Source of the DNA: an uncultured bacterium
Lineage (GTDB): Bacteria > Hydrothermota > Hydrothermia > UBA1063 > CAJXJZ01
Assembly (NCBI GenBank): GCA_913055745.1
Contig: CAJXJZ010000001.1
Span: 66,798 to 130,797 of the forward strand
Reading direction: 5' to 3'
Length of the DNA: 64,000 nucleotides
The notes under the pieces are model-generated. The model made no database searches and had not been told where the DNA came from. It saw nothing but the letters and a program-made list of their open reading frames with translations. Position numbers and translations under genes: made by a program. Below are positions 25,730 through 45,761 of this stretch, piece after piece. Each line of letters opens with the position of its first letter. The stretch's first letter is position 1.

Positions 25730-25791
25730 TTTATACGCAAAATGTTTTGTGTTCTCGAATTTCATTTTATCATATAAAAAAGGAGGAAAAA

Positions 25792-26514
25792 ATAATCACA
25801 TTATCTTTTATACTATTTAGTCTTTCAGAAACCGTAATTAAGGCGGACTCTTTTTTCTGGAGTATGAATTACGACAGTGCGAAGGTGTACTACACAAAGG
25901 CCCTCATTGAAGATTCAACCAGTTATTATGATGTTCATTGGAAACTGGCACGGCTTTATTGCAATATAGGTGATGTATTAAACAAAAAAGACAGTACAGA
26001 GAGCATGTATGATATGGCATTAAAACACGCAGATAAGGCCATATCAGAGGATAGCACAAGATATGAAGGGTATGTATGGAAATCTGCTGCTTTGGGTGAT
26101 AAGGCTCTGTTTCTGGGTGGGAAGAAAAAAATTGAGTATGCATTTCTTGTAAAAGATAATGCTGAAAAAGCACTTAGATTAAACCCTCAATGTGCGCTCT
26201 GCTATTTTATACTCGGTGAATACCAAAGAGAAGCAGCCACATTGGGGTCCATTTTACGAAGATTAGCCAAAACACTCTATGGAAAAGTACCAGAAGGCAC
26301 TTTGGATAGTTCACTCGTTCTATTATCAAAGGCAATAAAACTGGACTCCACTGAGATAAAGTATTATCTTGGCCGTGGAAAGACCTATATGAAAATGAAG
26401 GCATACGATCTTGCAAAAAAGGACTTTAATAGAGTGTTATCTTTAAAAGAAAAATACCAGGTGGACAGAAAATACAAAAAAGAGGCAAGGTATTTTCTTA
26501 AAAAACTTAAGTAA
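25792..26514 (+). CDS. Exported TPR-repeat protein, probable non-ATG start
   Basis: Tetratricopeptide repeats spread over the protein (for instance YDMALKHADKAISEDSTRYEGYVWKSAALGD and IKYYLGRGKTYMKMKAYDLAKKDFNRVL), giving a protein-binding scaffold. A hydrophobic start (TLSFILFSLSETVIKA) looks like a signal peptide. The start is odd: a perfect AAGGAGG is followed by ATA at 25792 and ATC at 25795, with no ATG/GTG/TTG in range. The ORF-track TTG at 25747 lies upstream of that site. Initiation at AUA or AUC is proposed; a sequencing error is the other explanation. Function unknown. Confidence 0.65.
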   Translation: MITLSFILFSLSETVIKADSFFWSMNYDSAKVYYTKALIEDSTSYYDVHWKLARLYCNIGDVLNKKDSTESMYDMALKHADKAISEDSTRYEGYVWKSAALGDKALFLGGKKKIEYAFLVKDNAEKALRLNPQCALCYFILGEYQREAATLGSILRRLAKTLYGKVPEGTLDSSLVLLSKAIKLDSTEIKYYLGRGKTYMKMKAYDLAKKDFNRVLSLKEKYQVDRKYKKEARYFLKKLK

Positions 26515-26517
26515 AGA

Positions 26518-27513: not shown

Positions 27514-29599
27514 AATATGCCTCCTTAAGTTTTTCTCTTAAACTAATAAGTTTGTTTTTCTCTTCTTGACTAAGTGGCAATTTTCCATTTTGCACAAGTT
27601 TAACATAGTCTCTCACCTTTTCAATAATATCCTGGTCCTTGTAAAAATGGAACACCCTAAACCCTGAAAAACCATGTTGTTTCGTTCCAAGTATTTCTCC
27701 TGGTCCCCTCATTTTAAGATCAAACTCTGCAAGGTCAAAACCACTGTCATACATCTTAAGTGCCTTAATCCTTTTCATACCTTCTTGAGAGGTGTTCTCA
27801 GACATAATAAGTATACAAAAAGACTTTTTCTTTCCCCTTCCTACCCTTCCTCTAAGTTGATGAAGTTGTGCAAGTCCAAACCTATCTGCGTGTTCTATTA
27901 CCATCAAGGTGGCATCTTTTACATCAATACCAACCTCAATGACAGTAGTAGAAAGCAATACATTGAATTCACCATCGCGAAACTTCTCCATCACGCTCCG
28001 TTTTTCCAATGGCTTCATCCTTCCGTGTAATAGGCCTATCCTCACCCCATCGCTTTTCATTTTATTGAGATACTCGTACATATTATAGAGGTCCTTCATA
28101 CCCTGCTTTTTTGTAAAATCGCTTTCTTCTATAAAAGGTACAACGATATACGCCTTTTCACCATTTTCAACCTTTTTAAAAACCCATCTGTACACCTCAT
28201 CCCTATTTTTTTCAACCTTTACCACTGTTTCTATCTTCCCTCTACCAGGAGGCTTTTCTGTAAGTAAAGAGAGTTCAAGATTGCCATAAAGGGTAAGTGC
28301 AAGACTCCTTGGAATAGGCGTTGCTGTCATGAGAAGAAGGTGTGGAGTAAATTCATCACCCTTTTTCCACAGGTTATATCGCTGTAATACACCAAACTTG
28401 TGTTGTTCATCAATTACAATAAGACCAAGTTTATAAAAATTCACATTCTCTGTTAAAAGTGCATGCGTACCAACCAAAATATCTATATCACCATTTGAAA
28501 GATAACCCAAAATCTGTCTTCTTTTTGCAGACCGAGTGCTACTTTTCAAAAGTTCCATTTTTAAAGGAAGACCACTTATAAAATTTGATAGCACCAAAAA
28601 CACCTGGTCAGCAAGGGTCTCTGTGGGCGCCATAAACGCTGCCTGCATACCGTTTTCAACAGCCCTTAGCATAGTATATATTGCAATTACTGTTTTTCCT
28701 GAACCCACATCCCCCTGAAGAAGCCTCTGCATTGGAACACTTTTTTCAAGGTCTTTATCAATCTCTTCAATAACCTTTTTCTGTCCCAATGTGAGAGAAA
28801 ACGGTAGTTTTTTTATAAAATCTAAAGAGAGTTCGCCTTTTTGCTTAAAGGGATAGGCCCTTTTAATATCCTCTTTTTTAATATTTATCTTATAAAAAAA
28901 CTGAAAGAGTTCATTAAACGCTATGACCTTCCTCGCCCTCTCCCCTTCCAAAACACTATCAGGAAAGTGCATTTTACTTATCGCTTCATGCAAAGGATAA
29001 AGGCGTTCTTTTTTTCTTATCACCTCTGGAACATAGTCTGTAAGATGAATATCCTCTTTTAAGAGTTCATATATGAGTTTTCGTATAAACCTTGAATCAA
29101 GACCCTCTGTTTGAGGATAAACAGGTATTACCATCCCGGCAATAATTTCATCATCACTATTTTTACCAATAATTGCATACTCTGGATGGACAAAAATAGG
29201 CTTATTATAATACTTGTCAAACTCAACCTTACCGCTTATTATAATTTCATCCCCTATCCTGAAAAGTTTCTGCATGTTCTTTACAAAAAACACCACCTCA
29301 ATCCAACCTGTGCCATCATCAACAATAATTCCAAAGCCCTCCTTCCCATAAAGACGCCTTCTTCCCCTTAATGTTATCCTCCCTTTAATAGTGACAAACT
29401 CCCCTGGGATCACATCACTGATAGATACTATTTTAGTTCTATCCTCATACCTTCTTGGTGCCAAAAACAAGAGGTCTTTTACAGTTTTTACACCTATTCT
29501 CTTAAAAAGCGCCTGTTTCTTAGGTCCTACGCCCTTGAGATACCTTATATCCCTATCTAATAAATCCCTTTTTTTTATCTTATCTGATTCGCTTGCCAT
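27503..29599 (-). CDS. recG: ATP-dependent DNA helicase RecG
   Basis: Branched-DNA helicase that reverses stalled forks. The wedge/OB domain is N-terminal (YLKGVGPKKQALFKRIGVKT, then VTIKGRITLRGRR). The helicase core follows with LLQGDVGSGKTVIA (motif I), VIDEQHKFGVLQR (motif II), MTATPIPRSLALTLYG (motif III) and LHQLRGRVGRG (motif VI). C-terminal residues include MRGPGEILGTKQHG. At 698 residues it is standard. Overlaps the dppA-like gene at its start. Confidence 0.96.
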   Translation of the reverse strand: MASESDKIKKRDLLDRDIRYLKGVGPKKQALFKRIGVKTVKDLLFLAPRRYEDRTKIVSISDVIPGEFVTIKGRITLRGRRRLYGKEGFGIIVDDGTGWIEVVFFVKNMQKLFRIGDEIIISGKVEFDKYYNKPIFVHPEYAIIGKNSDDEIIAGMVIPVYPQTEGLDSRFIRKLIYELLKEDIHLTDYVPEVIRKKERLYPLHEAISKMHFPDSVLEGERARKVIAFNELFQFFYKINIKKEDIKRAYPFKQKGELSLDFIKKLPFSLTLGQKKVIEEIDKDLEKSVPMQRLLQGDVGSGKTVIAIYTMLRAVENGMQAAFMAPTETLADQVFLVLSNFISGLPLKMELLKSSTRSAKRRQILGYLSNGDIDILVGTHALLTENVNFYKLGLIVIDEQHKFGVLQRYNLWKKGDEFTPHLLLMTATPIPRSLALTLYGNLELSLLTEKPPGRGKIETVVKVEKNRDEVYRWVFKKVENGEKAYIVVPFIEESDFTKKQGMKDLYNMYEYLNKMKSDGVRIGLLHGRMKPLEKRSVMEKFRDGEFNVLLSTTVIEVGIDVKDATLMVIEHADRFGLAQLHQLRGRVGRGKKKSFCILIMSENTSQEGMKRIKALKMYDSGFDLAEFDLKMRGPGEILGTKQHGFSGFRVFHFYKDQDIIEKVRDYVKLVQNGKLPLSQEEKNKLISLREKLKEAYYVA

Positions 29600-30411
29600 G
29601 CAATAATAGATGAGGCAACAATAAACCTATAAATTTCTTTAAAATCCTGTGCAACATACTTTATGGTACGTCCTGAAATCCTCTCTACCTGTGGTAAAAT
29701 AGAAACAAGGTCACACCTTAATGTATCCTTCAAAGTAATTAAAAGCGTATAGGGTGGGTTAAATACAGGATTATTCTCAACAAATGTCTTAAACCTCCCC
29801 TCTTTTAGTTTCTTAAATGCATTTTCCAAAGATTTTATCCTATTACTAAAGACCCTATCCCTTTCAAGCAACCACACTGCATTATGCCCTATGGACTTCT
29901 TTGTTATAAGAAATTCTGTTTCAGGGAAAAACTTGGAGGAAAAATCAAAAAGCGCACTATCACCAGATATAAAGATAACAGGCACATTAAACAAGGAAGC
30001 AAAAATAGCATTTATTTCACTCTCCCCTACCACCTGACCATTTATCTTTATCTCAAAGAAACTTGAAGATGAGTATGTATGGTCCATCGCTCCTTTTTCT
30101 AAACCCACAGGAGCATGATAACCCACAAAAAGTGCTGCATCAAAGGTATTATCAAGGCCTTCCATCATATAGAACTTGCGCGGGAAACCCCTTATAAGTT
30201 CTATGTTCACACCAAGATTTTCAGGATAAATATTTGTCCCAAAGGCATGTGAATCACATACCACTATCTTAGCTCGCGAATCAAGGTCAGATAAAATCTG
30301 TGCCACATGTTCAAGTTCCTGTGTCATGAGTTTACCAATCCTATCCCAAGGCTCTGAAAAATGGCTTATGCCCCATATACCCTCCATATCAATAGAAATA
30401 AAATATTTCAT
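29575..30411 (-). CDS. M55-family D-aminopeptidase (DppA-like)
   Basis: Zinc peptidase family known from Bacillus DppA, which releases D-alanine from D-Ala peptides. The metal-binding signature SIDMEGIWG opens the protein, with VVCDSHAFG, FVGYHAP, GAMDHTYSS and the later ISGDSALFDF. The 278 residues match the family. A TAGGAGGT lies before the ATG. It sits between dgt and recG in a leftward operon; a role in cell-wall peptide recycling is likely from the family, not shown here. Confidence 0.88.
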   Translation of the reverse strand: MKYFISIDMEGIWGISHFSEPWDRIGKLMTQELEHVAQILSDLDSRAKIVVCDSHAFGTNIYPENLGVNIELIRGFPRKFYMMEGLDNTFDAALFVGYHAPVGLEKGAMDHTYSSSSFFEIKINGQVVGESEINAIFASLFNVPVIFISGDSALFDFSSKFFPETEFLITKKSIGHNAVWLLERDRVFSNRIKSLENAFKKLKEGRFKTFVENNPVFNPPYTLLITLKDTLRCDLVSILPQVERISGRTIKYVAQDFKEIYRFIVASSIIAWQANQIR

Positions 30412-30420
30412 TTTAACCTC

Positions 30421-31461
30421 CTAAAAAATCGTCCATGGTGCTGGAATAAACAGTTCATTAAAAATCTCTATGGCATACCTATCTGTCATCCCAGATATAT
30501 AATCCCTGACAGCCTGCCAGGGCAGATAGTTTTTCTTCCTCTTTTTTATATCTTTATAAAACGGTATTTTGTCAAGGTGTTTCATAAAGTAGTTGAACAT
30601 AAACTCAATAATGTTTTTTGCCTTATCAGATTCAGACTTCACATATGGATTGAGATAAACCCTTTCCTTAAGAAAGTCCCTCATCTTCTTTACCATCTTA
30701 TCCATCTCTTCATCATAAGCCACCCTTTCATAATCATACTTTATAGTGGTTTCAATAATATTGGATACTATGGTAGAAATCCGCTCTCCATGTGTTCTTC
30801 CAAAAAAGTCAAGGAGTTCATCTGGCACATCCTCTATACTCAACACCTTGGCCCTTATTGCGTCATCCAAGTCATGGTTTAAATATGCCGCTATATCAGA
30901 TATCCTGACAACCTGACCTTCAAGCGTCCTGGGTACATCAGCATTCAAAATCTCCCCAAAACCCTTTGAATGCTTAACAATGCCCTCACGAACCTCCCAT
31001 GTAAGGTTAAGACCTATGCCATCTTTTTCTATATAATCCACCACCCTAAGGGACTGATAAGGATGGCGAAATCCACCATGTTCCTTTAAAAGTTCATTAA
31101 GAACAGCCTCTCCAGTATGTCCAAATGGCGTATGTCCAAGGTCATGACCAAGCGCTATAGCCTCTATTAAATCCTCATTCAATCTGAGTGCCCTTCCTAT
31201 GGTTCTTGCAATCTGAGCAACCTCAAGGGTATGGGTAAGCCTTGTTCTGTAATGGTCACCCACTGGCGATAAAAACACCTGTGTTTTGTGCTTTAGCCTT
31301 CTGAATGCCTTTGAATGAATAATCCTGTCTCTGTCTCTCTGATACTCGGTTCTAAATCTGCATGGAAGTTCTTTCCTTTTCCTTCCCCTTGTTTTATGAG
31401 ATTTTTGTGCCCTGGGATGTAGGAACTTCTCTTCTATCTCTTCATACCTTTCTCTGTACAT
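30421..31461 (-). CDS. dgt: dGTP triphosphohydrolase-like HD protein
   Basis: HD-domain nucleotidase: [20 protein letters not shown], then [15 protein letters not shown] and [17 protein letters not shown] with the metal-binding H...HD...D set, and later [18 protein letters not shown]. This is the deoxyguanosinetriphosphate triphosphohydrolase-like family that controls dNTP pools. ATG at 31461 is favoured over the TTG at 31467, with AGGTG upstream. It overlaps moxR by 20 bases. Length 347 is normal for this subtype. Confidence 0.92.
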
Positions 31462-32425
31462 ACTCAAGCACCTTTGAAATTATATCTTCTTTCTTTATCC
31501 CTTCTGCCTCTGCCCTGTAATTCAAAATCAATCTATGACGCAAGACATCGTATGCTATCTCATTTACCTCTTTTGTCGTAGCAACAGGCTTTCCATACAA
31601 AAGAGCAAGGGCTTTGGACGCAAGAATAAGATACTGAGAAGCACGAGGGCCTGCGCCATAAAGCACATAGTCTTTTACCTCTTTAATATGAGAATATAAG
31701 GGCCTTGTTTCTCTGGCTATATTAACTGCATATTCTGTCACATGCCTACCCACAGGCATAGAAAGCACAAGTTTTTGGTATGCAACAATATCCTCCTTCT
31801 TTACAATACGATGAATATCCTTTTCTTCGACTTGAGTAGTAAGTTCCACCACCTTGATCTCATCATCAAAATCAGGATAATCAATCACAATCTCAAGCAT
31901 AAATCTATCAAGTTGAGCCTCAGGCAAAGGATATGTGCCTTCCTGTTCTATAGGGTTTTGCGTTGCAATCACAGTAAATGGCCTGGGAAGTTCATAGGTT
32001 TTACCCTGCACTGTCACCCTTCTTTCCTGCATCGCCTCCAATAGTGCGGATTGGGTTTTAGGAGGCGTTCTATTTATCTCATCAGCAAGAATAAAATTAG
32101 CAAAAACAGGCCCCTTTACAAACCTAAAAAATCTCCTCCCTTTTTCGTCAGTATCAAGGATTTCAGTTCCAATTATATCAGATGGCATAAGGTCTGGTGT
32201 AAATTGAATACGGGAAAAATCAAGGTCAAGTATTTCAGAAAGTGTCTTTATCATACGGGTTTTTGCAAGGCCTGGCACGCCTGTTATAATAGAATGCCCC
32301 TCGCAGAGTAATGTTACAACAATCCTTTTAATAACTTCCTTCTGGCCAATAATCCTTTTTTCAATTTCTCTATTAAGGCCAGTCCAGAGTTTTGTAGCGT
32401 GTTCTATCTTCTCTTCTATATTCAT
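31442..32425 (-). CDS. MoxR-type AAA+ ATPase
   Basis: AAA+ chaperone of the MoxR branch: Walker [13 protein letters not shown], Walker [30 protein letters not shown], sensor 1 [26 protein letters not shown], and sensor 2 GPRASQ. MoxR proteins help mature metalloenzymes or envelope complexes, normally with a VWA-domain partner, which is not found here. First gene of the leftward operon moxR, dgt, dppA, recG, DUF4837. No ribosome binding site before the ATG. Confidence 0.92.
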
Positions 32426-32590: not shown

Positions 32591-35437
32591 ATGACAAACA
32601 ATAGCGAAAACTTAAAAGAAAAACTAAAAAGCAAACTTAGGGAGATTTTTCAGTTTGAAAATGAAGATTTAGATTTTGGCATATATAGGATAATGAATTA
32701 CAAGCGAAAAGAAATTGAGAAATTTATTGAAGAAGAATTGATAGATAAAATTAAAAAACAGTTATCGTTATTGAGTGAAGAAGAAAGGAATAAGATTGAA
32801 GAGCAATTAAATGAGATCTCCTCTAAAAATGGCGTTAAGAAGTATTTAGAAGCACTTGAAAAAGGAGATGAAAATAGGACAAAGATTTATAGAGAAGACT
32901 TCACAGAGGATATTAAGAAGTATGAAAAACTAAAAAAACAGATGGAAGAAATTAGAATCTCAGAAGGTTTAGAAAAAGAGATTTACAATCACCTGATTAA
33001 TTTCTTTACAAGATACTATGACAATGGAGATTTTATAAGCAAGAGAAGGTATGGAAGGAAAATAAAGTATGTTGTCCCATACAATGGAGAAGAAGTTATT
33101 TTACACTGGGCAAATAAAGATCAATATTACATAAAAACTACTGAGTATTTTAGAAAATACACTTTTAGTGCCAAAGAATTAACTGTTAATTTCAGGGTTG
33201 TAGAAGCAGAAGAAGAGAAAGGCAATGCTAAAGCACAGGAAAAGAAGTTTTTTGTTTTGAATGAAAAGGTGTTTGATTTTAATGATGATAAGAAAGAGTT
33301 GAACATATATTTTGAGTATAGGGCTTTAACTGATGAGGAGAAAGAAAAATACAAGCAAGGCAATACGGTGTCTCAGGATAAAGCCAATGAGGAAACAGTA
33401 AAGATTTTGGAAGAGAAAATCCCGCAGAACAGTTTAGCAAGACTAATTTTTGAAAAAGAAGGAGATAAAACATTTATTGAAAGGCATCTTTACCGATACA
33501 CAAGAAGAAATACAACCGATTACTTTATTCATAAAGACTTAAAAGGTTTCTTAGAAAAGGAATTAGACTTCTACATTAAAAATGAGTTTTTACAATTGGA
33601 GGATTTACAGGTTTTGGACCAAAGCGGTTATTTTGATAAGTTAAGGCTTTACCTAATTGGAGTAAGGGCATTTAGGAATATTGCACTGAAGATAATTGAA
33701 TTTCTGGCACAGATAGAGAACTTTCAGAAGAAGATATGGGAGAAGAAGAAGTTTGTTATTGACACCCACTATGTAATAACTCTGGACAAAATAAAGGAAT
33801 ACGCAGGAGAGGAATTTTTAGAGAGTATTGTAGATGAGATTTTGAGCAATAAAAAGCAGTTAAAAGAATGGAAGGAACTGTTTGGAATTGAGGTTAAAAA
33901 GAAGGAAAATTTAATTAAAAATAATGGACAGTTGGAATTAAATGGAAAAAAATGGAAGAAATTGCCGATAGATACAAAATATTTTGATGAAGAGTTTAAG
34001 TGGAAGTTGCTGATTGCTTTATCAAAAAACAATAATTTAGACGATATATTAGACGGAGTTTTAATAAAATCAGAAAACTGGCAGGCTTTGAACTTGCTTT
34101 TTAATAAGTATTATGAAAAAGTGCAGACGATTTATATTGACCCGCCATTCAATACAGGAAGGGACTTTTTATATAAAGATAAATACAAAGATAGTAGCTG
34201 GTTAACTTTAATGGAGAACAGGATAAATTTATCTAAAGATTTGTTAAATGAAAAAGGAAGTATTTATGTTCATTTGGATTGGCATATGGAGCATCATGGA
34301 AAGATATTGATGGATGAGATTTTTGGGAAGGAGAATTTTAGGAATGAAATTATTTGGTATTACCCTGATAATTTTCAAGGGAACGTAAATAGATTTCCAA
34401 TAAATCATAACATTATATTTTTTTATACAAAAACTGATGATTACTTTTACCAAAGAATAAAAGAAAAGTTAGCTAAACCGATAAAGAGACCTACTCGTAT
34501 ATGGAATAAAAAAACTGAAAAACTTGAAATTCTAAGAGATAGAGAAGGAGATCCAATATATAAGGAATATAATGAAAAGTTTATTGATGATGTATGGATT
34601 ATAGCTCAAAGATCTACTGTTGTTTCTTCTAATAGTGAATTTTGGCCATTTGATACTCAAAAACCCGAAATTCTTCTCAAACGTGTCATAAAATCTACAT
34701 CCAACGAAGGAGATTTGGTTATGGACTTCTTCCTTGGTTCTGGTACAACAACAGCAGTAGCACATAAGATTAAAAGAAAATGGATTGGTGTAGAGATGGG
34801 AGAACATTTTTATAGTATAGTTTTACCAAGAATGAAAAAGGTTCTGTATTATGATAAATCTGGAATATCAAAGGAAAAAGATGTCAAAGAAATATACAAT
34901 CCAAAAACAGCAGGGGGATTTTTCAAATACCACACCTTAGAGCAATACGAAGATGCTTTAGAAAACATTGAATTTGAAGAGCCAAATAGTATGTTTTATA
35001 ATCTTCCTGATTACTTTGTTAAATACATGCTTGATTGGGAGACAAAGCAAAGCAAAACATTTCTCAATATTGATGAATTAAAAGATCCATTCAAGTATAA
35101 ACTTAAGATTATAGAAAATTATCAGCAAAAAATTGTTAACGTTGATTTAATAGAAACTTTTAACTATCTTTTAGGATTGGAGGTTAAAGCATACAAAGTC
35201 TTAAAAGATAATGAAAGAAAGTATATTTTTGTATTTGGCGAAAAAGAAGGGAAAAGAATAACGGTAGTTTGGAGAAGTGTAGAAAACATTGATTTTGAGA
35301 AAGACAAAGAAGTTATTGAAAAACATATAATGGATTTTAATCCAGATGATGTCTATATCAATGGAGATGCGGTGATTAAGAACTTTAAACCAATAGAACC
35401 TGAATTTAAATCGTTAATGATGGGAGGGTTAGAATGA
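32591..35437 (+). CDS. Type III restriction-modification methyltransferase (Mod)
   Basis: Adenine-N6 methyltransferase of the beta class: the catalytic DPPF motif (YIDPPFNTG, about residue 516) comes before the SAM-binding FxGxG motif (DFFLGSGTTTAVAHKIKRKWIGVEM, about 712). The segment between them, about 575-690, is the likely target-recognition domain. A long N-terminal part of about 450 residues and a C-terminal extension make it 948 residues, larger than EcoP15I Mod. TTGGAGGT precedes the ATG. Codon use is more AT-rich than the preceding operon, consistent with acquisition. It overlaps the next gene by ATGA. Confidence 0.92.
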   Translation: MTNNSENLKEKLKSKLREIFQFENEDLDFGIYRIMNYKRKEIEKFIEEELIDKIKKQLSLLSEEERNKIEEQLNEISSKNGVKKYLEALEKGDENRTKIYREDFTEDIKKYEKLKKQMEEIRISEGLEKEIYNHLINFFTRYYDNGDFISKRRYGRKIKYVVPYNGEEVILHWANKDQYYIKTTEYFRKYTFSAKELTVNFRVVEAEEEKGNAKAQEKKFFVLNEKVFDFNDDKKELNIYFEYRALTDEEKEKYKQGNTVSQDKANEETVKILEEKIPQNSLARLIFEKEGDKTFIERHLYRYTRRNTTDYFIHKDLKGFLEKELDFYIKNEFLQLEDLQVLDQSGYFDKLRLYLIGVRAFRNIALKIIEFLAQIENFQKKIWEKKKFVIDTHYVITLDKIKEYAGEEFLESIVDEILSNKKQLKEWKELFGIEVKKKENLIKNNGQLELNGKKWKKLPIDTKYFDEEFKWKLLIALSKNNNLDDILDGVLIKSENWQALNLLFNKYYEKVQTIYIDPPFNTGRDFLYKDKYKDSSWLTLMENRINLSKDLLNEKGSIYVHLDWHMEHHGKILMDEIFGKENFRNEIIWYYPDNFQGNVNRFPINHNIIFFYTKTDDYFYQRIKEKLAKPIKRPTRIWNKKTEKLEILRDREGDPIYKEYNEKFIDDVWIIAQRSTVVSSNSEFWPFDTQKPEILLKRVIKSTSNEGDLVMDFFLGSGTTTAVAHKIKRKWIGVEMGEHFYSIVLPRMKKVLYYDKSGISKEKDVKEIYNPKTAGGFFKYHTLEQYEDALENIEFEEPNSMFYNLPDYFVKYMLDWETKQSKTFLNIDELKDPFKYKLKIIENYQQKIVNVDLIETFNYLLGLEVKAYKVLKDNERKYIFVFGEKEGKRITVVWRSVENIDFEKDKEVIEKHIMDFNPDDVYINGDAVIKNFKPIEPEFKSLMMGGLE

Positions 35438-35877
35438 ATAAAAAATATTTTGCTTATGGCTCCAATATGGATCAAGATCAGATGAAAAGTAGGTGTCCAG
35501 ATTCTAAATTTTTAACAGTTGTTTACCTTGAAAATTATAAGTTTGTTTATGATGGATATTCCAAAACATGGAAAGGTAGTGCAGCCAATATAGTACCTGA
35601 AAATGGCTCAATAGTTTGGGGCGTTTTATATTCTATCTCTGAAAATGATGAAAAAAACCTGGATGAAAAAGAGGGATACCGAAAAAATATATATAACAAG
35701 AAAGAAGTTATAGTAAAAGATAAAGATGGAAACAGTTATAAAGCTCTCGCTTATCTAAGACCACCCAAACCAAAGGGAAAACCATCAGATGCTTATGAAA
35801 AAAAGATAGTAGATGCCGCTAAAAAATTAAATTTTCCTGAACAATATATAAAAAAATACCTTATAGTAAGTGAATAG
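35434..35877 (+). CDS. Gamma-glutamylcyclotransferase-like protein inside the restriction operon
   Basis: GGCT/AIG2-like fold, 147 residues. The substrate-binding loop YFAYGSNM is at residues 5-12, and Glu80 in NLDEKEGYRKN fits the catalytic acid. The family cyclises gamma-glutamyl amines or peptides to 5-oxoproline. It lies exactly between mod (ATGA overlap) and res (2-base gap), so it must be co-transcribed and probably co-translated with both. A role in the restriction system, for example self-control or an added toxic activity, is an inference. The C-terminal FPEQYIKKYL is like small bacterial GGCTs. Confidence 0.82.
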   Translation: MNKKYFAYGSNMDQDQMKSRCPDSKFLTVVYLENYKFVYDGYSKTWKGSAANIVPENGSIVWGVLYSISENDEKNLDEKEGYRKNIYNKKEVIVKDKDGNSYKALAYLRPPKPKGKPSDAYEKKIVDAAKKLNFPEQYIKKYLIVSE

Positions 35878-35879
35878 CG

Positions 35880-38800
35880 ATGGAACTTGAAAGGCATTTA
35901 GTATTGAACAAATATTTTCTTAACCTCTTTGGTTTTAGCGATTTTAACGAGTTAAGAGAGAAATTAAAGGATACAGAAGAAGGTTATGATTCCAGAGGAA
36001 GAAGTTATTTTGTTGATGTATTGATAGGCTTAAAACCAGAATGGGAAGATTTACTTTTGAGATACGACGAAGCAATAAGAGAATATGTTGAAAGATTGAG
36101 ACACAACAGAAGGCAACCAAATTTCAATCTTAAATACTTTCAATATTTGGCTGTTCTATTCACTGAGATTTTCTTGGATAAGTATTATAACAATAGAGAC
36201 AGATTTATAAATGATCTAAATGAATTTTTAGAGAAATTTAATGATGAAAAGGGCATTGAAACACATCCTTTCACAGAAGAAGACCTAAGAAAGCTTGCCT
36301 TCTGGATGGCAACAGGAAGTGGGAAAACCCTTATAATGCACATAAACTACTGGCAGATTTTAAAGTATTCAAGGAATAATTGGGATAACATCATTCTCAT
36401 AACACCTAACGACGGATTATCAAGGCAACATTATGAAGAATTAAAATTAAGCGGTATTCCTTGCAAATTATATGATGGCAATATTAACAACTTAAAAACG
36501 AAAGATAAAGAGATTTTGGTTATAGATATTCATAAACTTACCAGGGAGAAAAAAGGTGAGGGAGTAAGTGTAGACATTTCTTATTTCGATGGTAAGAATT
36601 TAGTTTTCATTGATGAAGGGCATAAAGGAGCAGGAGGAGAAAAAGAAACAGGTTGGAAAAACATAAGAGAGGAAACAGCCAAGAATGGTTTTATTTTTGA
36701 ATACAGTGCTACCTTTGGCCAAATCATTGTATTTACAAAATCAGGGCGACCCAAGGGAGGAAAATCAAATCAAACCAACCTTGAACTGTATAATGAATAC
36801 ACCAAGGCAATAATTTTTAATTATTCTTACAAATACTTTTACACAGATGGATATGGCAAAGACTTTTATGTTTATAATATAAAAGAAGATGCATACACAG
36901 AAGAACAGAGGAACATGTTGCTTATTGCAGGTCTCTTATCTTTTTACGAACAACTTGTTATTTATAAAGAGCATAAAGAAGATTTAAGAGAATACAATAT
37001 AGAAAAACCATTATGGGTTTTCGTTGGCAGTAAAGTCACAGGAGAAGGTTTAAATTCAGATATCATAAAAATAATACAATTTTTCCATAAAATCATAAAA
37101 GATGAAAATTACTTGAAAGAGAATGCAGAGAAAATACTGAATGAAAAATCGGATCTTATTGATAATAAAGGAGATGATATTTTCAAAGGAAAGTTTGAAT
37201 ATATCAAAAACCGCAACATTGAAGATATCCTTGAAGATATTTATCAAAAAGTCTTTGGTGGAAAAGGTAGTTTGGAGGTTTATAACATAAAAAACGCAGA
37301 AGGAGAGATTGGACTCAAAACAGGTACCAGTGAGAAATATTTTGGTGTAATTAATGTAGGAGATACTAATGCCTTGAAAAAACTGATTTTAAAATCTGAT
37401 ATTGAAGTAAAAGAAGACCACTTCAGTCAGTCTCTGTTTTCTGAAATAAATGAAAATAGTTCGCATATAAATATTCTCATAGGTTCTAAAAAATTTATTG
37501 AAGGTTGGAACTCATGGCGTGTATCAAATATGGGATTGATTAACATGGGAAAAAGTGAAGGGCCACAAATTATTCAACTCTTTGGAAGAGGCGTGAGGCT
37601 TAAAGGAAAAGACTACTCTTTAAAAAGAGAACAAAATCCTGATTATACATTAAAGGTAATTCAAACCCTATTCATCTTTGGCTTGAACGCCGATTATATG
37701 AATGTATTCTTAAAGACAATAGAGAAGGAAGAAGTAGATTATGAAGAAATAACTATTCCAATAAGATTTAATATGCCAGAGAAATGGGAAGGGAAAATAT
37801 ACACTATAGAAACGAAAGACGATTTTGATTTTCTTAAGTATCCTGTCAAACTCACATTTGATGAAAATCTTCTCAAGAATATCAAAATAGATTTAAGGCC
37901 TAAAATCACAATGTCTCATGGATTAAAAGTTAAAGCAGTAGACACATCTATTGATCAATCCTTAGAAATACCAGAAAGTTTGCTTGATATGATTGACTGG
38001 AATGCCATTTATCTTGAAACAACAAGTTATAAAATAACAAAAGGATTTTATAACCTTACTCTTGATAAAAAAGTATTGAAAGAAATTATAAAGTCAAGAA
38101 AATATCAAGTTTTCATGAACAAAACAGATGGAATAGAAATTAAGAAAAGTAATAACAGATCTATTTTAGAAATAACATCTTTTGACGGCGTTATAAAATT
38201 ACACGAGATACTCCTTATGGTCATTAAAGACTACATCTTTAAATTCTACAGAAGAGAAGAAAAAAGAAAAACAATGGATTATTTAGAACCCAGGCCACTA
38301 ACAAGAGAGTATGAAAGTATGTTTCCAGAGAATAAAAAAATTATATTGAAAGTAAACAAAGAGATTATAAAAGACTTTGAAGACCTGATAAAGCAAATTG
38401 AAGAGTATAACAAGGATAAAAACAAAATACCAGATATTTTAAAATCAGATATTGATTATATTCCTACCATTTACTTTGATAAACACTTATATGCCCCATT
38501 AGTAACATACAAAGCAGGTAGAAAAGAAGATATTAAGTCAGTGCCTGTAAAACTGAATAGAGGTGAAACAAGTTTTATTAAAGATTTAAAGAACTTCATT
38601 AATCGTAACAAAAGTTTATTTGCAAACAATGAGATATTTTTACTGAGAAATCTTTCAAAAAGAGGTATAGGATTCTTTATGAGCGCTGGTTTCTATCCTG
38701 ATTTTATTATATGGGTCAAAGACAAAAACAAACAAAACATCATTTTTATTGACCCGAAAGGCATCAGGAATCTCGGTAATTTTGATGACGAAAAAATCCA

Positions 38801-39041
38801 GTTATGTGTTCATGATATTAAAGACATAGAGAGTAGAGTAAATGAGAAATTAAGCAATAAAAATGAAAAACTTAGCTTACACTTAGATGCCTTTATTATT
38901 TCTGTGTCTTCCTATGACGATGTTAAAACAACATTTGGAAATGGCGATTACTCCAAAGATGATTTTGAATCTCATAATATAATATTCCAGGAAAAGAGAG
39001 GATACATTGAAAAACTCTTTAAAAAGGCCAAAATATACTAA
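35880..39041 (+). CDS. Type III restriction endonuclease (Res)
   Basis: SF2 helicase-nuclease that cuts after ATP-driven communication between two sites. Motif I ATGSGKT at about residue 143, motif II FIDEGHKG (a DEAH variant) at about 244, motif III EYSATFGQ, motif VI QLFGRGVRLKGK at about 567. The C-terminal PD-(D/E)xK nuclease reads FYPDFIIWV then FIDPKG at about 938-957. Length 1,053 is usual. No ribosome binding site; translation probably relies on the upstream gene. Intact, so the system is likely functional. Confidence 0.93.
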   Translation: MELERHLVLNKYFLNLFGFSDFNELREKLKDTEEGYDSRGRSYFVDVLIGLKPEWEDLLLRYDEAIREYVERLRHNRRQPNFNLKYFQYLAVLFTEIFLDKYYNNRDRFINDLNEFLEKFNDEKGIETHPFTEEDLRKLAFWMATGSGKTLIMHINYWQILKYSRNNWDNIILITPNDGLSRQHYEELKLSGIPCKLYDGNINNLKTKDKEILVIDIHKLTREKKGEGVSVDISYFDGKNLVFIDEGHKGAGGEKETGWKNIREETAKNGFIFEYSATFGQIIVFTKSGRPKGGKSNQTNLELYNEYTKAIIFNYSYKYFYTDGYGKDFYVYNIKEDAYTEEQRNMLLIAGLLSFYEQLVIYKEHKEDLREYNIEKPLWVFVGSKVTGEGLNSDIIKIIQFFHKIIKDENYLKENAEKILNEKSDLIDNKGDDIFKGKFEYIKNRNIEDILEDIYQKVFGGKGSLEVYNIKNAEGEIGLKTGTSEKYFGVINVGDTNALKKLILKSDIEVKEDHFSQSLFSEINENSSHINILIGSKKFIEGWNSWRVSNMGLINMGKSEGPQIIQLFGRGVRLKGKDYSLKREQNPDYTLKVIQTLFIFGLNADYMNVFLKTIEKEEVDYEEITIPIRFNMPEKWEGKIYTIETKDDFDFLKYPVKLTFDENLLKNIKIDLRPKITMSHGLKVKAVDTSIDQSLEIPESLLDMIDWNAIYLETTSYKITKGFYNLTLDKKVLKEIIKSRKYQVFMNKTDGIEIKKSNNRSILEITSFDGVIKLHEILLMVIKDYIFKFYRREEKRKTMDYLEPRPLTREYESMFPENKKIILKVNKEIIKDFEDLIKQIEEYNKDKNKIPDILKSDIDYIPTIYFDKHLYAPLVTYKAGRKEDIKSVPVKLNRGETSFIKDLKNFINRNKSLFANNEIFLLRNLSKRGIGFFMSAGFYPDFIIWVKDKNKQNIIFIDPKGIRNLGNFDDEKIQLCVHDIKDIESRVNEKLSNKNEKLSLHLDAFIISVSSYDDVKTTFGNGDYSKDDFESHNIIFQEKRGYIEKLFKKAKIY

Positions 39042-39109: not shown

Positions 39110-39655
39110 ATGGTCTATGTGATTGGCGTTTTAGTAGCATTAATAATTTACCTGATTATAATCTACAATTCCTTAGTCAAATTAAAAGTCAGAGTGAAAA
39201 ATGCATGGTCGCAGATAGATGTGCAATTAAAAAGAAGGCATGACCTTATCCCAAATCTTGTTAATACTGTTAAAGGTTATGCAAAACACGAGAGAGAACT
39301 CTTTGAAACCATTGCAAAATATAGGTCCATGGCTCAAAATGCAAAGAATATGAAAGAAATAGGAGAAAGTGAAGGGCACTTAACAGAAGCCATGCAAAAA
39401 CTCATTGCGATAGTTGAAAACTACCCCGAACTCAAGGCAAATGAAAACTTCTTACAACTCCAGGAGGAACTCGTATCAACAGAAAACAAAATAGCCTTTG
39501 CAAGACAGTTCTATAACGATACAGTAATGAAATACAACACCAGGATAGAGTCCTTCCCTTCAAACATCATAGCAGGGATGTTTAACTTTAAAAAGGCAGA
39601 CTTCTTGCTTTTCCCCGGTGAAAGGGAAAATGTGAATGTAAACTTTGCAGAATAA
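39110..39655 (+). CDS. lemA: LemA family membrane protein
   Basis: One N-terminal membrane helix (VIGVLVALIIYLIIIYNSLV) followed by the conserved helical bundle: VKNAWSQIDVQLKRRHDLIPNLVNTVKGYAKHE and LQEELVSTENKIAFARQFYND. LemA is often paired with HtpX or with rim-forming membrane proteins; its biochemical role is not known. The next gene is htpX, three bases on. Composition resembles the core genes again, so the pair is probably native to the genome and flanked by acquired DNA. Confidence 0.92.
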   Translation: MVYVIGVLVALIIYLIIIYNSLVKLKVRVKNAWSQIDVQLKRRHDLIPNLVNTVKGYAKHERELFETIAKYRSMAQNAKNMKEIGESEGHLTEAMQKLIAIVENYPELKANENFLQLQEELVSTENKIAFARQFYNDTVMKYNTRIESFPSNIIAGMFNFKKADFLLFPGERENVNVNFAE

Positions 39656-39657
39656 CT

Positions 39658-40599
39658 ATGGATTTTTATGAAATAGCAGAAAGAAATAAAAGAAGAACCA
39701 TTGTTCTAATCTTAATTTTTACAGCCATTTTAGCATTTTTAGGTTATGTTTTGGATTTTTATTACTTTGGCAATAGATTCCCTTATCTTACAATATTAGC
39801 CATTTTTATAGGTGGGTTTCAGGCTTTCATTGGTTATGTAGCAGGGGATAAGATGGTCCTTCATTCTGTACAGGCAAGGCCTGCAAACCCAAACAATCTC
39901 AAAGAAAAACAACTCATTAACATTGTTGAAGAACTTTCAATAGCAGCAGGATTGCCCACACCCAAGGTCTATGTAATGGATGACCCTTCGCCCAATGCCT
40001 TTGCAACAGGAAGAGATCCAGCCCATGCATCTGTATGTGCCACCACAGGCCTCTTAGAAATGATGAACAGAGAGGAACTTCAAGGGGTAATGGGACATGA
40101 ACTCACACATGTAAGAGAAAGAGACATCCTGACTATGACCATGGTTGCCGCATTGGCAGGTGCAATTGGCATACTTGCAGCCATATCAAGAAATCTTATG
40201 TATTTTGGAGTAGGAAGGAGAGACCGTGACGATGATGATAACGGCGGCGGAGAAGGTAGGCTTATAATATTTATTATTTACATCATTCTCGCCATTTTAG
40301 CACCACTAATTGCAAATATTTTAGCACTTGCTGTATCTCGCTCAAGGGAGTATGCAGCAGACGCAGGAAGTGCTGAACTTACAAGAAACCCACTTGCACT
40401 TGCAAGCGCATTAAGAAAAATAAAAGATGGGCCTCCTATGAAACACAAAAATCACGGAGTTGCACATCTTTTTATATCAGACCCACATAAAAAAGGCATA
40501 TCAGAAAAAGACTCTCTATGGGCAAACCTCTTTGCAACCCATCCCCCCATTGAAAAACGCATAGCAATCCTTGAAAACATGGCCCATAAATACGCCTAA
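39658..40599 (+). CDS. htpX: HtpX-like membrane zinc protease
   Basis: M48 family integral membrane metalloprotease that degrades misfolded membrane proteins. HExxH zinc site in GVMGHELTHVRERD, third ligand in SRSREYAADAGSAEL, and ATHPPIEKRIAIL at the C-terminus. Four hydrophobic segments, two N-terminal (VLILIFTAILAFLGY and LTILAIFIGGFQAFIGY) and two around the middle. A loop with GRRDRDDDDNGGGEG separates the later helices. Forms a two-gene unit with lemA, a common pairing. Confidence 0.94.
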   Translation: MDFYEIAERNKRRTIVLILIFTAILAFLGYVLDFYYFGNRFPYLTILAIFIGGFQAFIGYVAGDKMVLHSVQARPANPNNLKEKQLINIVEELSIAAGLPTPKVYVMDDPSPNAFATGRDPAHASVCATTGLLEMMNREELQGVMGHELTHVRERDILTMTMVAALAGAIGILAAISRNLMYFGVGRRDRDDDDNGGGEGRLIIFIIYIILAILAPLIANILALAVSRSREYAADAGSAELTRNPLALASALRKIKDGPPMKHKNHGVAHLFISDPHKKGISEKDSLWANLFATHPPIEKRIAILENMAHKYA

Positions 40600-40611: not shown

Positions 40612-40640
40612 TTGACAATTCGGGCAAAATGCTTTATAAT
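40612..40640 (+). promoter_or_regulatory. Consensus promoter of the repeat-protein cluster
   Basis: TTGACA, exactly 17 bases, TATAAT: both hexamers are perfect consensus, the strongest promoter in the window. Transcription should start near 40647. Confidence 0.85.
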
Positions 40641-40835
40641 ATACATCTACACAAGGCATGCGATACATTTACTGGCAAATGTTCTTCTATAATTCACAAC
40701 AAATAAAGATAGCGAAACGGTGAACGCTCTCAACCCGAAAGTGTCATCAATAGGCGACCTCCTTTTAATTTTAGTTGTCATATTTTTAAAATGAGATAAA
40801 TATCTTTTTTAAAATTTTTAAAAAGGAGGTGTATT
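40641..40835 (+). ncRNA. Long 5' leader with an anti-Shine-Dalgarno arm (candidate RNA switch)
   Basis: About 190 untranslated nucleotides separate the promoter from the repeat-protein gene. Local hairpins are visible: ACATTT-ACTGGC-AAATGT at 40665 and AGCG...CGCT near 40721. ACCTCCTTTT at 40757-40766 is a perfect 10-base complement of the ribosome binding site AAAAGGAGGT at 40821-40830. Pairing would close translation of the first gene. I could not match it to a known riboswitch class. An AGATA-AA-TATCT hairpin lies in the intervening loop. Confidence 0.45.
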
Positions 40836-41171
40836 TTGGGGATAGAAATACAAGATAAAAATGGGTATAAACTGTATACCTACACAGGTAGCACAGTACA
40901 GGATAGAAATGGGCATACAATACTAAGAATCAGTGGAAATTATGTGCAAGATAAAAATGGTAATACTTTATACATATTCACAGGAAATGAAATAAAGGAT
41001 AGAAATGGTGGGACACTATATAGGTTTACAGGGAGTGAAATTCAGGATAGAAATGGAAGCAAACTCTATAAATATACAGGAACAGCACTCCAAGATAGAA
41101 ATGGATTTATATTATATAGGTTAACTGCACCTGTCCCACCTGTCATATTTGTAGCATTAGGACTTATCTAA
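40836..41171 (+). CDS. Small protein of six 16-residue repeats
   Basis: Not a recognised gene. After three residues the protein is six consecutive 16-residue units of the form x-[IV]-QD[RK]NG-xx-LYx[YF]TG-x, for example EIQDRNGSKLYKYTGT, ending in a short hydrophobic tail (PPVIFVALGLI). Alternating polar and aromatic positions with a central NG turn predict one beta hairpin per unit, as in beta-flower or WG-type repeat proteins. The start is TTG at 40836, six bases from AAAAGGAGGT. No signal peptide is seen. It is first in the cluster with two large paralogues, which share its upstream sequence style. Confidence 0.7.
   Translation: MGIEIQDKNGYKLYTYTGSTVQDRNGHTILRISGNYVQDKNGNTLYIFTGNEIKDRNGGTLYRFTGSEIQDRNGSKLYKYTGTALQDRNGFILYRLTAPVPPVIFVALGLI
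40845..41132 (+). repeat. Six tandem 48-bp coding repeats
   Basis: Each 48-bp unit encodes one 16-residue hairpin; CA(A/G)GATA(A/G)AAATGG recurs in most units. The units have diverged at third positions, so this is an old array kept by selection rather than a fresh expansion. Confidence 0.8.
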
Positions 41172-41299
41172 AATCGTAACCGCACTATCATTAGAACACT
41201 GTCAAAAATCGCTATAAGAGGCCTCATCAAAATAAACAGAGTAATTTTATGGTATATTTAATATTTTGTTTTTTTAAATTTTAAAAAGGAGGTGTTATA

Positions 41300-43492
41300 A
41301 TGTTCCCAATATGGAGTTATACAGATAAAGTTTATAACCATTTTGAAATTGAGCAATCAGAAAACTTAAAAGATTATTACTTTCTATTAAATGATACAGC
41401 AATAATGGAAGCACGTTATAAGATAAGTACACCCAAAAAACACATTGCAAAACAATACTATAAGGCAATGCAAATTCTCATGAAATCTCACCCTAAATGG
41501 AAGGCTTATTTAAAAGAAGTGGCAGAAGCCTTAAGGAATTTTTATAAAATAGATGACAGTAAAATTACTGACATTGTTATAAATTATGATGGTCATAATT
41601 ATGGAATGCCTAAGATAGAAAATGTGACCATTTACAGAGAAATATTAGCAGAAGGTTTTATTGGGAAGGTTGGACAATATATAAGAGAAAGAGTTCCATT
41701 CCTTATAGTAAGTGCTGATAAACAGTATCCTGACGAATTGGTTGATGCTGAAAATATATATTTTAAAAATGCATATAATATTGATTTATGGCATGTCAGT
41801 TTAGACGAATTACCCCAAAAATTATTAGATAATCCTGAAGATTTAAAGCAATTAAAAGCATTGGTAGAGATTATACCCATCGCAAAGAAAATAAAGGAAG
41901 AGACTGAAGGGATTGATGACCCAAAAAAGAAAAAGCAAATTAAAACCCTATATCATAAAAAGATTGACAAGGCAAGAAAAGAACTTGAAAAGAAAACAAA
42001 AAAGAAGTCGTCAACCAATGAAAATAAATCCGATGAAGAATTTGATTACAATTACATTGCAAAAAAGATAGATGAAATAAATAAAACCAGGAGAAATAGA
42101 CTTTTAAAAGTAATGAAAGAAAAATTTGATTTAAATGGATTACCCATATCAGGAGGATATCTTGGTAATGAGGAAGTTTATATTCCAGAAAATTCCTACA
42201 TATTTTTAGTAGATATTGAGCATCCCTTACATAAACCTTTTATAAAATATCATTTAGGGAATGATCCTACGCATAGGGCTACACTAAAATTTATTGATTT
42301 TATAAAATTCTTTGGTCATGATAGTTGGATTTCACAAGATTATGTCTTTGCTTTCATCAAACTTCCATTTCCTGATTTTTTCATTAGTTATTATCCACAC
42401 ACTGACTCAGGATTATTTTATGCACTATTGACTTCAGACCCAGCCCATGCCTATAAGTCTTCCCGCGATTGGACTATTAAGGAAATAATAAACATAAAAG
42501 AAAATAACAACGAGCAACCAAGAGAGGGTACTTATTTCCTAAAGAAACTAGAATTCCTGTATGTTCAAGTGGACCCTTTTATAGAAAAATCTAAAAAAGT
42601 AAAAAATCCCCTATTTGAACCTGATAAAGAAAAAGTAGTTAATAGTTATTTCATGCGAGGATACTTTGAAAGCGATATTCATTATATATGGAATGACTTT
42701 TTAGCCTTAGATTTAGATGATGATGGAAGGCCAATTCTCATTTACCTCAAAGAAATCCCTTCTCAAGACAAATCAAAAGAATGGATAGAAAAGAATCTCA
42801 AGCAATTGGGGTTTTCGTTGAGAAACGATAAGTGGGTTTATGTATTTCCGACTTCAGTTAAAAATATGGAGCAAATTTATGATAGTATCACAGACATTAT
42901 ATTCTACCTACATAATATGTATAATGTTTTTGAAAAAGGCGTGATAAAAAAAATAGACATAGATAAAATAAAAGACACAAGACAATACAATGAGGAAATT
43001 TCTAAAATTGAACTTATGAATAAACAAAAGGTTTCTTTGTTTCCTTATTTAGAAAAAGCAAAAGCCAGAGGTAAATCAATTTTCAAAACTCCAATAGATG
43101 TTATCTATGCAACTTACAAAGACCTTATATATGACATTATCATAAAAGTGTATCCCAAACTAAAGGAAAAAGGGTTGGATGAATACTATATATTGGTAGT
43201 AGATATGGCTACTGATGGCAATCCTCTTTTTATTATAGGAAAAGTTGTAGAAGCCTATCCAACTAATGCAAATAATAAAAAAGAGAGGTTACTTAATGAG
43301 GCAAAAATTGATTTTATAAAAAATAGATTGGGTTATTCAATGGAAGAAAAAAGGTGGGTAAAGAAGGTTAAAGCAAAAAATGTAGAAGATTTATATAATA
43401 AGGTTATGGGCGACACCAGAGAACTAAATAATTATGACTTTCTTATAGACGCCAAACCTTCTCTTTTGAAAAAATTGGCGCAAGAAATATAA
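41300..43492 (+). CDS. Unrecognised 730-residue protein, paralogue A
   Basis: No family recognised. N-terminal third with KQYYKAMQILMKSHPKWKAYL and ADKQYPDELVDAEN; then a charged linker (about 195-250: KKIKEETEGIDDPKKKKQIK) leading to DYNYIAKKIDEINK. The C-terminal half holds two related modules: LDLDDDGRPILIYL...GFSLRNDKWVYVFP and VDMATDGNPLFIIG...RLGYSMEEKRWVKKV, each with an acidic D-x-x-DG loop. There is no signal peptide or membrane helix, so it is probably cytoplasmic. AAAAGGAGGTG precedes the ATG. The next gene is a paralogue throughout its length. Composition is strongly AT-rich. Confidence 0.7.
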   Translation: MFPIWSYTDKVYNHFEIEQSENLKDYYFLLNDTAIMEARYKISTPKKHIAKQYYKAMQILMKSHPKWKAYLKEVAEALRNFYKIDDSKITDIVINYDGHNYGMPKIENVTIYREILAEGFIGKVGQYIRERVPFLIVSADKQYPDELVDAENIYFKNAYNIDLWHVSLDELPQKLLDNPEDLKQLKALVEIIPIAKKIKEETEGIDDPKKKKQIKTLYHKKIDKARKELEKKTKKKSSTNENKSDEEFDYNYIAKKIDEINKTRRNRLLKVMKEKFDLNGLPISGGYLGNEEVYIPENSYIFLVDIEHPLHKPFIKYHLGNDPTHRATLKFIDFIKFFGHDSWISQDYVFAFIKLPFPDFFISYYPHTDSGLFYALLTSDPAHAYKSSRDWTIKEIINIKENNNEQPREGTYFLKKLEFLYVQVDPFIEKSKKVKNPLFEPDKEKVVNSYFMRGYFESDIHYIWNDFLALDLDDDGRPILIYLKEIPSQDKSKEWIEKNLKQLGFSLRNDKWVYVFPTSVKNMEQIYDSITDIIFYLHNMYNVFEKGVIKKIDIDKIKDTRQYNEEISKIELMNKQKVSLFPYLEKAKARGKSIFKTPIDVIYATYKDLIYDIIIKVYPKLKEKGLDEYYILVVDMATDGNPLFIIGKVVEAYPTNANNKKERLLNEAKIDFIKNRLGYSMEEKRWVKKVKAKNVEDLYNKVMGDTRELNNYDFLIDAKPSLLKKLAQEI
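41840..41973 (+). repeat. Near-identical tract shared by the two paralogues, copy 1
   Basis: 134 bases matching 44079-44212 with only three mismatches; the last 92 bases (41882-41973) are identical. The flanking parts of the two genes are clearly more diverged. Confidence 0.85.
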
Positions 43493-43526
43493 AAATGTAT
43501 TTTTTAAATAAAAAAGGAGGTGTATA

Positions 43527-45761
43527 ATGGTTTTAGGATATGGACTTTATACTTCTCGTGCAACAGCTATATGGCAATATAGAAGTAAACTTGGTTATTA
43601 TTATGAGATAATTAAATATGAAGGGGGAAGAAATCTTTTTTTTGTGCGTGCTAACCCATTTATGGACGCACATGGAGGGCGTAATAGTTTTGCAAAACAA
43701 TATTATAAAGCGATGCTTATCTTGATGAACTATCATCCCATTTGGAGACTTCACTTTAAAGAGACTATCAAAGCACTTAAGGATTTTTACAAAATAAATG
43801 ACAGCAAAATTGCTTCTGTTAAGGTTAAATATACTCCAGAAATGACGGAAATAGGAGGCGTTTCTTTTTGGACAGTAGAAAAATTTCTGGAACCACTATC
43901 GAGAGAATACATGCAATATCTCAAAAGGGATGAGCCTTTTATCATAGCAAGTGCAAATAAATGTTATCCTGATGAATTGGTTGATGCTGAAAATAAATAT
44001 TTTCAAAAAGAATACAATGTTGATTTATGGCATCTCAATTTGGATGAATTGCCTAAAAAACTACTAAATAAGCCAACAGATTTAAAGCAATTAAAAGCAT
44101 TGATAGAGATTATGCCCATTGCAAAGAAAATAAAGGAAGAGACTGAAGGGATTGATGACCCAAAAAAGAAAAAGCAAATTAAAACCCTATATCATAAAAA
44201 GATTGACAAGGCGAGGGAAGGACTTAAAAAGAAGTCTTCAACCAATAAAAATAAATCAGATAAAGAATTTGATTACAATTATATTGCGAAAAAGATAGAG
44301 GAAATAAATAAAATAAGAAAAAATAGACTCTCAAAAGTAATGAGAAAAAAATTCGGATTAAATGGATCACCTATAACAGAAGGACAGCTTTATAAAAAAA
44401 CAAATTCAAGTAATGATAAAAAAATAGATATTGAAGAAAATTCCTACATATTTTTTATTAGCCCTCAACATCCTTTATTTAACATTTTTCAAAAGATTCA
44501 ATATTACAAAAACAAGAATATTTTTAAAGAGGCAGAGCAACCATATATTGATTTAATCAAATTTTTTGATTATGATAATTGGACTTCTCAAGATTCTGTA
44601 TTTGTTTATCTTGGACATTCAACTGAATCCTCATCTTATGTATATATGATAGGGACAGGAGAGCCTAACAAACCTAAGAGTAAATTTTATGATTGGAGCA
44701 TTTCATCATTTGAATCAGCCAAAAAAATTCAATTTCCTATTGATAAAGACATATTTTATTTAGAGATATTATTTACCTTAGGTGTAGATACAAAGCCATT
44801 TCTTGAAAAATGCCTTCATCTTAAAGACGAAGAAGAGCCATTTATTCTATCTCAATATGAGAAAAATGCAAACTCAAAAGAGGGATACAAAAAACTATTT
44901 CAGGAAACAATTAAAAAATTAGAAGAGAAAAAAGCAAATCCTGATGAATACTTTAAACCACATATATTGGCATTTGATTTAGATGAACATAATAGACCTA
45001 TTCTTATCTATATTGAAAAAATACCCACTGAAATAAAAGCACAGAAATGGGTACAAGATACTCTAAAACAACTTGGGTTCTCTTTTGAAAATGGCAAATG
45101 GATTTATAGAATTCCAGATCACATCAAAAATCTTGAGGAATTTTTTGATGATATAAAAGATATACTGTTCCATTTAAATAAAATGAAAGAGAATATTGAG
45201 AAAAACGTATTACAAAACATAGATAAAATAGAGGACATTAAGCAATTCAATTACGAGTTAGATAAAATTGAGTTATTAAATAACCGAGATATTTGCTTAC
45301 TCCCCTATTTAGAAAAAGCCAAAACCAAAGGAAGCAATATATTTAAAACTCCTGCAGACATTCTGTATAATGCCTATATCAATAAATATCCAGAAGAGAA
45401 AAAACTAATGGATGAAGGTAGTTTATTAGATGATCTTTTTGTCCTAATAGTAGATATGGATTCTGATGGTAAACCTCTTCTTATTATAGGACTGGGTGCG
45501 GAATTATACCCATTTAAAGAAGATACCAAAAAAGGAGAAGCAATTTGGAAAGCAAAAGTTTATTTTGTAGAAATAGAACTGGATTATGACAAAGAAAACG
45601 GCCTGTGGGTAAAAAGGATTGAACCAAAAGATCTAAATGATTTTTGGAATAAAGTTTTTAGCAATGCTGTAGAATTACAGAGACACAGGGTTCATACAGA
45701 GGTTATAGACCTTCCCTGGGCTGACCCGTGGGAGGTCAATTACAGGGCATATATAATATAA
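43527..45761 (+). CDS. Unrecognised 744-residue protein, paralogue B
   Basis: Tandem duplicate of the preceding gene with the same order of parts: KQYYKAMLILMNYHPIW, ANKCYPDELVDAENKYF, the charged linker, DYNYIAKKIEEINK, and the two C-terminal modules (FDLDEHNRPILIYI...GFSFENGKWIYRIP and VDMDSDGKPLLIIG...KENGLWVKRI). The last ~25 residues (LPWADPWEVNYRAYII) are extra. AAAAAGGAGGTGT lies seven bases before the ATG at 43527. Function unknown; conserved acidic loops such as DMDSDG could bind metal, which is speculation from the pattern. Confidence 0.7.
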   Translation: MVLGYGLYTSRATAIWQYRSKLGYYYEIIKYEGGRNLFFVRANPFMDAHGGRNSFAKQYYKAMLILMNYHPIWRLHFKETIKALKDFYKINDSKIASVKVKYTPEMTEIGGVSFWTVEKFLEPLSREYMQYLKRDEPFIIASANKCYPDELVDAENKYFQKEYNVDLWHLNLDELPKKLLNKPTDLKQLKALIEIMPIAKKIKEETEGIDDPKKKKQIKTLYHKKIDKAREGLKKKSSTNKNKSDKEFDYNYIAKKIEEINKIRKNRLSKVMRKKFGLNGSPITEGQLYKKTNSSNDKKIDIEENSYIFFISPQHPLFNIFQKIQYYKNKNIFKEAEQPYIDLIKFFDYDNWTSQDSVFVYLGHSTESSSYVYMIGTGEPNKPKSKFYDWSISSFESAKKIQFPIDKDIFYLEILFTLGVDTKPFLEKCLHLKDEEEPFILSQYEKNANSKEGYKKLFQETIKKLEEKKANPDEYFKPHILAFDLDEHNRPILIYIEKIPTEIKAQKWVQDTLKQLGFSFENGKWIYRIPDHIKNLEEFFDDIKDILFHLNKMKENIEKNVLQNIDKIEDIKQFNYELDKIELLNNRDICLLPYLEKAKTKGSNIFKTPADILYNAYINKYPEEKKLMDEGSLLDDLFVLIVDMDSDGKPLLIIGLGAELYPFKEDTKKGEAIWKAKVYFVEIELDYDKENGLWVKRIEPKDLNDFWNKVFSNAVELQRHRVHTEVIDLPWADPWEVNYRAYII
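44079..44212 (+). repeat. Near-identical tract shared by the two paralogues, copy 2
   Basis: Partner of 41840-41973; identical over 44121-44212. It encodes the PIAKKIKEETEGIDDPKKKK linker. Confidence 0.85.
45708..45737 (+). other. GC-rich hairpin at the 3' end of paralogue B
   Basis: GACCT-T-CCC pairs with GGGAGGTC with a one-base bulge, and an inner GGG-CTGA-CCC closes the loop. It stands out in an AT-rich gene, codes for DLPWADPWEV, and lies just before the stop codon. No T-run follows, so it is not a classical terminator. Confidence 0.45.

Follow-up and report, generated by a model that had tools for sequence, protein, structure and literature searches.

The β-flower fold (clan CL0395) was defined in 2023 by Durairaj et al. 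from structure predictions (PMC10584680). Its hairpin repeats, the tips of which carry the semiconserved motif [DNEQ]xxG, form 8, 10 or 12 short antiparallel strands in a shallow closed barrel, and in many members the fold encloses a hydrophobic C-terminal helix. β-flowers resemble Tubby-type lipid-binding domains, the clan members of which bind phosphoinositides or act as scramblases; they have no match in the PDB, and no function is known for the fold (PMC10584680).

Two other kinds of described system invite comparison with the locus considered here: leaders that sequester a ribosome-binding site, among them riboswitches, RNA thermometers and autogenous leaders, and type III restriction-modification systems. 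The locus lies in a 64-kb stretch of DNA (the window; position 1 is its first letter) from a genome of 1.79 Mb. An ORF check of the window confirmed three ORFs, all on the same strand (Table 1). Because the gaps between them measure 128 and 34 bp, and no terminator-like site was found between them on the + strand, they probably share a single transcript.

Table 1. Positions of the cluster features and of the nearby restriction genes in the window.
Feature	Position	Strand	Remark
mod, type III restriction	32591-35437		
res, type III restriction	35880-39041		
Sigma-70-type promoter, perfect, TTGACA-17-TATAAT	40612-40640	+	Sole such site in window; 0.14 expected
Leader, ~190 nt	40647-40835	+	Transcription start inferred from promoter
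T/A-rich block and ribosome-binding site, first gene	40806-40835	+	Motif search
111-aa β-flower-fold protein (by sequence and model), TTG start	40836-41171	+	Six 16-aa hairpin repeats, [ILV][QK]D[RK]NG.., and hydrophobic C-terminal helix
T/A-rich block and ribosome-binding site, second gene	41266-41295	+	Motif search
Paralogue 1, 730-aa orphan protein	41300-43492	+	
Centre of putative gene-converted tract, paralogue 1	41882-41973	+	92 bp identical to paralogue 2
Degenerate T/A-rich block and ribosome-binding site, third gene	43495-43523	+	Motif search
Paralogue 2, 744-aa orphan protein	43527-45761	+	

The small protein and the two large paralogues

The initial annotation had described the 111-residue protein as carrying six repeats, and six 16-residue repeats were indeed found, with the tip D-x-N-G (D[RK]NG) invariant in all of them at a period of 16. 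As a correction to that description, the protein has a recognisable fold. It matches Pfam PF21785 (Bflower_2) with E=1.4e-8, and its AlphaFold model, run without an alignment (pLDDT 84.6), has 12 strands and a C-terminal helix. The six tips are of the [DNEQ]xxG type, the agreement with the barrel is one of strand count only, and the helix (102-109, residues APVPPVIFVALGLI; local pLDDT ~52-64) is hydrophobic. The Pfam score of 35 bits falls 3 bits short of the curated cut-off of 38 bits, and the protein is therefore filed under the β-flower fold, which it fits in sequence and model, and not as a certified member of PF21785. Besides this shortfall, it differs from described β-flowers in having no lipoprotein signal. 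A Foldseek search of the model against the PDB and BFVD gave nothing significant, which for the PDB agrees with the 2023 paper's own result (PMC10584680).

PF21785-type matches occur in 7 of 147 genomes of the phylum, the genome of the window counted. Seven intact relatives in the phylum all share the six 16-residue repeats and the hydrophobic C-terminal segment. A profile made from these seven ranks the window's protein at the top of the non-members (E 9e-5, the next being 0.11).

The two large proteins are 44-48% identical, in keeping with the paralogy claimed for them. Outside residues 140-275 they show dN 0.51 and dS 1.22 (dN/dS ~0.4), and in residues 466-505 identity amounts to 93% at second and 45% at third codon positions. 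Judged by these codon statistics, the paralogues are real genes under purifying selection. In codons 140-275, dS drops to 0.34 and the two genes agree at every position over 92 bp, a contrast with the remainder that points to gene conversion in the centre of the genes. Self-comparison of the two-row profile revealed an internal repeat in the C-terminal half (~412-545 vs 581-711, E about 2e-5 to 3e-5), with the motif [VL]DxDxDGxPLxI followed by LG[FY]SxENxxW[VI]. The AlphaFold model from the two-row alignment is of low confidence (mean pLDDT 45); in it, each repeat unit would adopt the order strand-strand-helix-strand-strand-helix. A PDB fold search with this model found nothing significant.

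For the paralogues, the absence of recognisable domains and membrane helices stands: Pfam, NCBIfam and PHROG profiles and PDB sequences gave no significant match, and the highest 19-residue Kyte-Doolittle means (1.19 and 1.27) are too weak for a membrane helix. None of the three cluster proteins matched PADLOC-DB 2.0 at E up to 1, and the analysis turned up neither a catalytic motif nor a toxin domain.

Relatives of the paralogues were found neither in 100 genomes by protein search nor in 147 genomes of the phylum, three congeners included, by profile search. Pattern-plus-tblastn scans of GTDB genome contigs and of 2.9 million viral contigs yielded none either; these contig scans use a few exact peptide patterns and reach mainly close relatives, so that distant ones may escape them. 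Phages and plasmids likewise contained no relatives (P0002 against plasmids and phages and P0001 against plasmids gave nothing useful). At the seven other β-flower loci of the phylum, the neighbours are unrelated and none resembles the paralogues; among the β-flower loci examined, only the window's gene precedes two large orphan paralogues.

Some of these neighbourhoods have features of their own. In L044 and L048 (genomes G056 and G077), the β-flower gene is followed by a secreted-looking protein of ~665 aa and two further proteins of ~180-207 and ~660 aa, a small conserved neighbourhood. In L045 and L047 (G069 and G050), it lies upstream of a ~420-aa protein that is metallophosphatase-like by eye.

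The co-occurrence of repeat gene and paralogues in other genomes, to which the initial annotation had looked, did not emerge, the window being the single instance beside seven β-flower loci of the phylum that lack the paralogues. Its term "undescribed system" thus keeps its first half, given paralogues with no detectable relatives and a fold with no known function. The second half is weakened, as the three-gene arrangement was found once in the collections searched, which does not amount to a conserved system.

A variable region around lemA and htpX

The cluster lies in A+T-rich DNA, as had been noted, with a GC content of 30-34% (GC3 22-25%) compared with 40% in htpX and hdr; the paralogues and the type III restriction genes both have 30%. 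The housekeeping pair lemA-htpX (39110-40599) is kept in sibling genomes, and here it has A+T-rich insertions on both sides. In the sibling G001, genes matching window positions 25747-32425 are followed by lemA and htpX, another gene and yebC-ruvC (named by eye from the sequence), without the two insertions. The order in the window is restriction cassette (32591-39041), lemA, htpX, β-flower cluster and hdr, with yebC on another contig, and the upstream neighbours of the hdr operon differ in G001 and G003. By these comparisons of gene order, the region is a variable site that has seen at least two insertions and one rearrangement, and the cluster sits where synteny is broken, between htpX and hdr.

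The cluster had been placed next to the type III restriction system. It does occupy the same variable region and has the same low GC, but it is a neighbour only at a distance, on the other side of lemA-htpX, and shares no protein with that system. Cassette and cluster reflect separate insertions flanking lemA-htpX, which shows a variable site and not a shared function. The restriction system itself carries, between mod and res, a gene of the GGACT/AIG2-like gamma-glutamylcyclotransferase family (35434-35877; Pfam E 7.5e-20).

The low GC, the synteny break and the absence from sibling species (the three congeners lack the cluster) make an accessory, acquired nature well supported by comparative sequence data. 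We tentatively favour the reading that the cluster is a laterally acquired, lineage-restricted accessory operon, most likely for conflict with other elements; as a whole, this is a serious possibility that stops short of being probable.

Another origin would account for the same A+T-rich orphan genes at the same break, namely plasmid or virus cargo stranded at a rearrangement breakpoint, encoded by the element and useless to the host. Large soluble lysine-rich orphan proteins, to which the paralogues correspond, are common in mobile elements. This origin is nevertheless somewhat unlikely: the frames are open and have diverged under purifying selection, a tRNA scan of the window found none, no integrase was noticed beside the cluster, and viral contigs, phages and plasmids hold no relatives within the reach of the scans, which is mainly that of close relatives.

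Promoter, ribosome-binding blocks and leader

The perfect consensus promoter and the long leader described earlier were both recovered, the promoter as one occurrence in the window against a chance expectation of 0.14. The sequence AAAAGGAGGTGT stands upstream of all three starts (at 40821, 41284 and 43512) and has a count of 4 in the window, where 0.01 would be expected. As a ribosome-binding site, its core, AAGGAGGT, is nothing unusual in this genome, where it is common. The extended block, a T-run and A/T-run ending in AAAAAGGAGGTG, was found in the whole 1.79-Mb genome (≤3 mismatches allowed) only before the first and second cluster genes, and the third gene has a degenerate version. The shared blocks that the initial annotation ascribed to all three genes are confirmed, in degenerate form for the third.

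These blocks bear on whether the genes belong together at all. The β-flower gene and the paralogues could be unrelated neighbours at an insertion hot spot, sharing a block for compositional reasons only; the commonness of AAGGAGGT would agree with this, as would the different, unrelated genes adjoining the other β-flower genes of the phylum. Such a chance association is unlikely in view of the extended block restricted to the first two genes, the common strand, the short gaps and the lack of a terminator-like site between the genes. It is quite improbable that the cluster is a host operon for membrane or envelope stress, with a lipid-binding β-flower (as the Tubby-type members of the clan might suggest; PMC10584680) and paralogues acting with LemA and HtpX in membrane protein quality control, because the cluster, which does directly follow htpX in the same orientation, is preceded by a perfect promoter of its own and has a very different base composition, and all siblings have lemA-htpX without it.

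Like leaders that sequester a ribosome-binding site, the leader of the cluster contains, from 40757 (ACCUCCUUUUAAUUUU...), a segment complementary to the first gene's ribosome-binding region (40806-40835). The predicted duplex has -18.0 kcal/mol, and 4 of 2000 dinucleotide-shuffled leaders were as stable (mean -10.7, sd 2.0); in the folding model, the ribosome-binding site is >98% paired at 37 °C. The folding energy of the whole leader is ordinary (z -1.25), and as this is a single sequence it allows no covariation comparison. According to these predictions, the leader hairpin can bury the first ribosome-binding site and is a candidate regulatory element. It differs from the described leaders in that Rfam gave no credible match at gathering or relaxed thresholds and in that the modelled pairing extends up to 80 °C. 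An RNA thermometer was considered as its identity and set aside; the modelled pairing of the site, still ~89% at 80 °C, argues against a simple one.

On the minus strand, 40757-40781 reads ATGACAACTAAAATTAAAAGGAGGT, which is similar to the ribosome-binding leader belonging to a different gene in the genome (G000:C39:3473-3500, L006; 28 bp at 93%). Because of this resemblance, the complementarity in the leader may have arisen by inverted insertion of a segment like a ribosome-binding leader. The leader also contains a possible ORF of 21 codons (ATGCGATAC...TGA, 40658-40723), the ribosome-binding site of which is poorly spaced.

Proposed role of the cluster

The sequence data support well a cluster with one strong promoter, a small β-flower-fold protein with a hydrophobic C-terminal helix and two large soluble paralogues, which arose by tandem duplication and remained under purifying selection with partial homogenisation by gene conversion. 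If it is an acquired accessory operon, as we prefer, the leader hairpin would bury the first ribosome-binding site and keep translation low until it is opened. By analogy with its Tubby-type relatives in the clan, the β-flower may contact lipids or the membrane as an anchor or sensor, and the two large proteins may work with it in the cytoplasm. The evidence for co-function of the three genes is the operon structure, in one instance in the collections searched.

The likeliest class of task would be conflict with other elements, for example phage defence. This guess from context is favoured because the genes are orphan and A+T-rich and lie in a region that also acquired a restriction cassette. 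A defence or conflict role, already considered in the initial annotation, is thus plausible for A+T-rich orphan genes in a variable region; the lack of a PADLOC match and the separate insertion of the restriction cassette speak against it. A storage role, considered there as well, is supported by no observation. A bolder version, in which the cluster would be a new conflict or membrane-surveillance system, with the β-flower sensing or contacting the membrane and controlling two paralogues of new fold while the leader hairpin shuts off translation of the sensor, must be regarded as a long shot.

The β-flower fold has been known since 2023; new, as far as the sequences in the collections searched go, is its pairing with two orphan paralogues that have no detectable relatives there. 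The repeated domain of these paralogues would be well worth a structure determination. With a β-flower gene that seems to share an operon with two large orphans, in a strain-variable region, the locus offers a genetic handle on the function of the fold.
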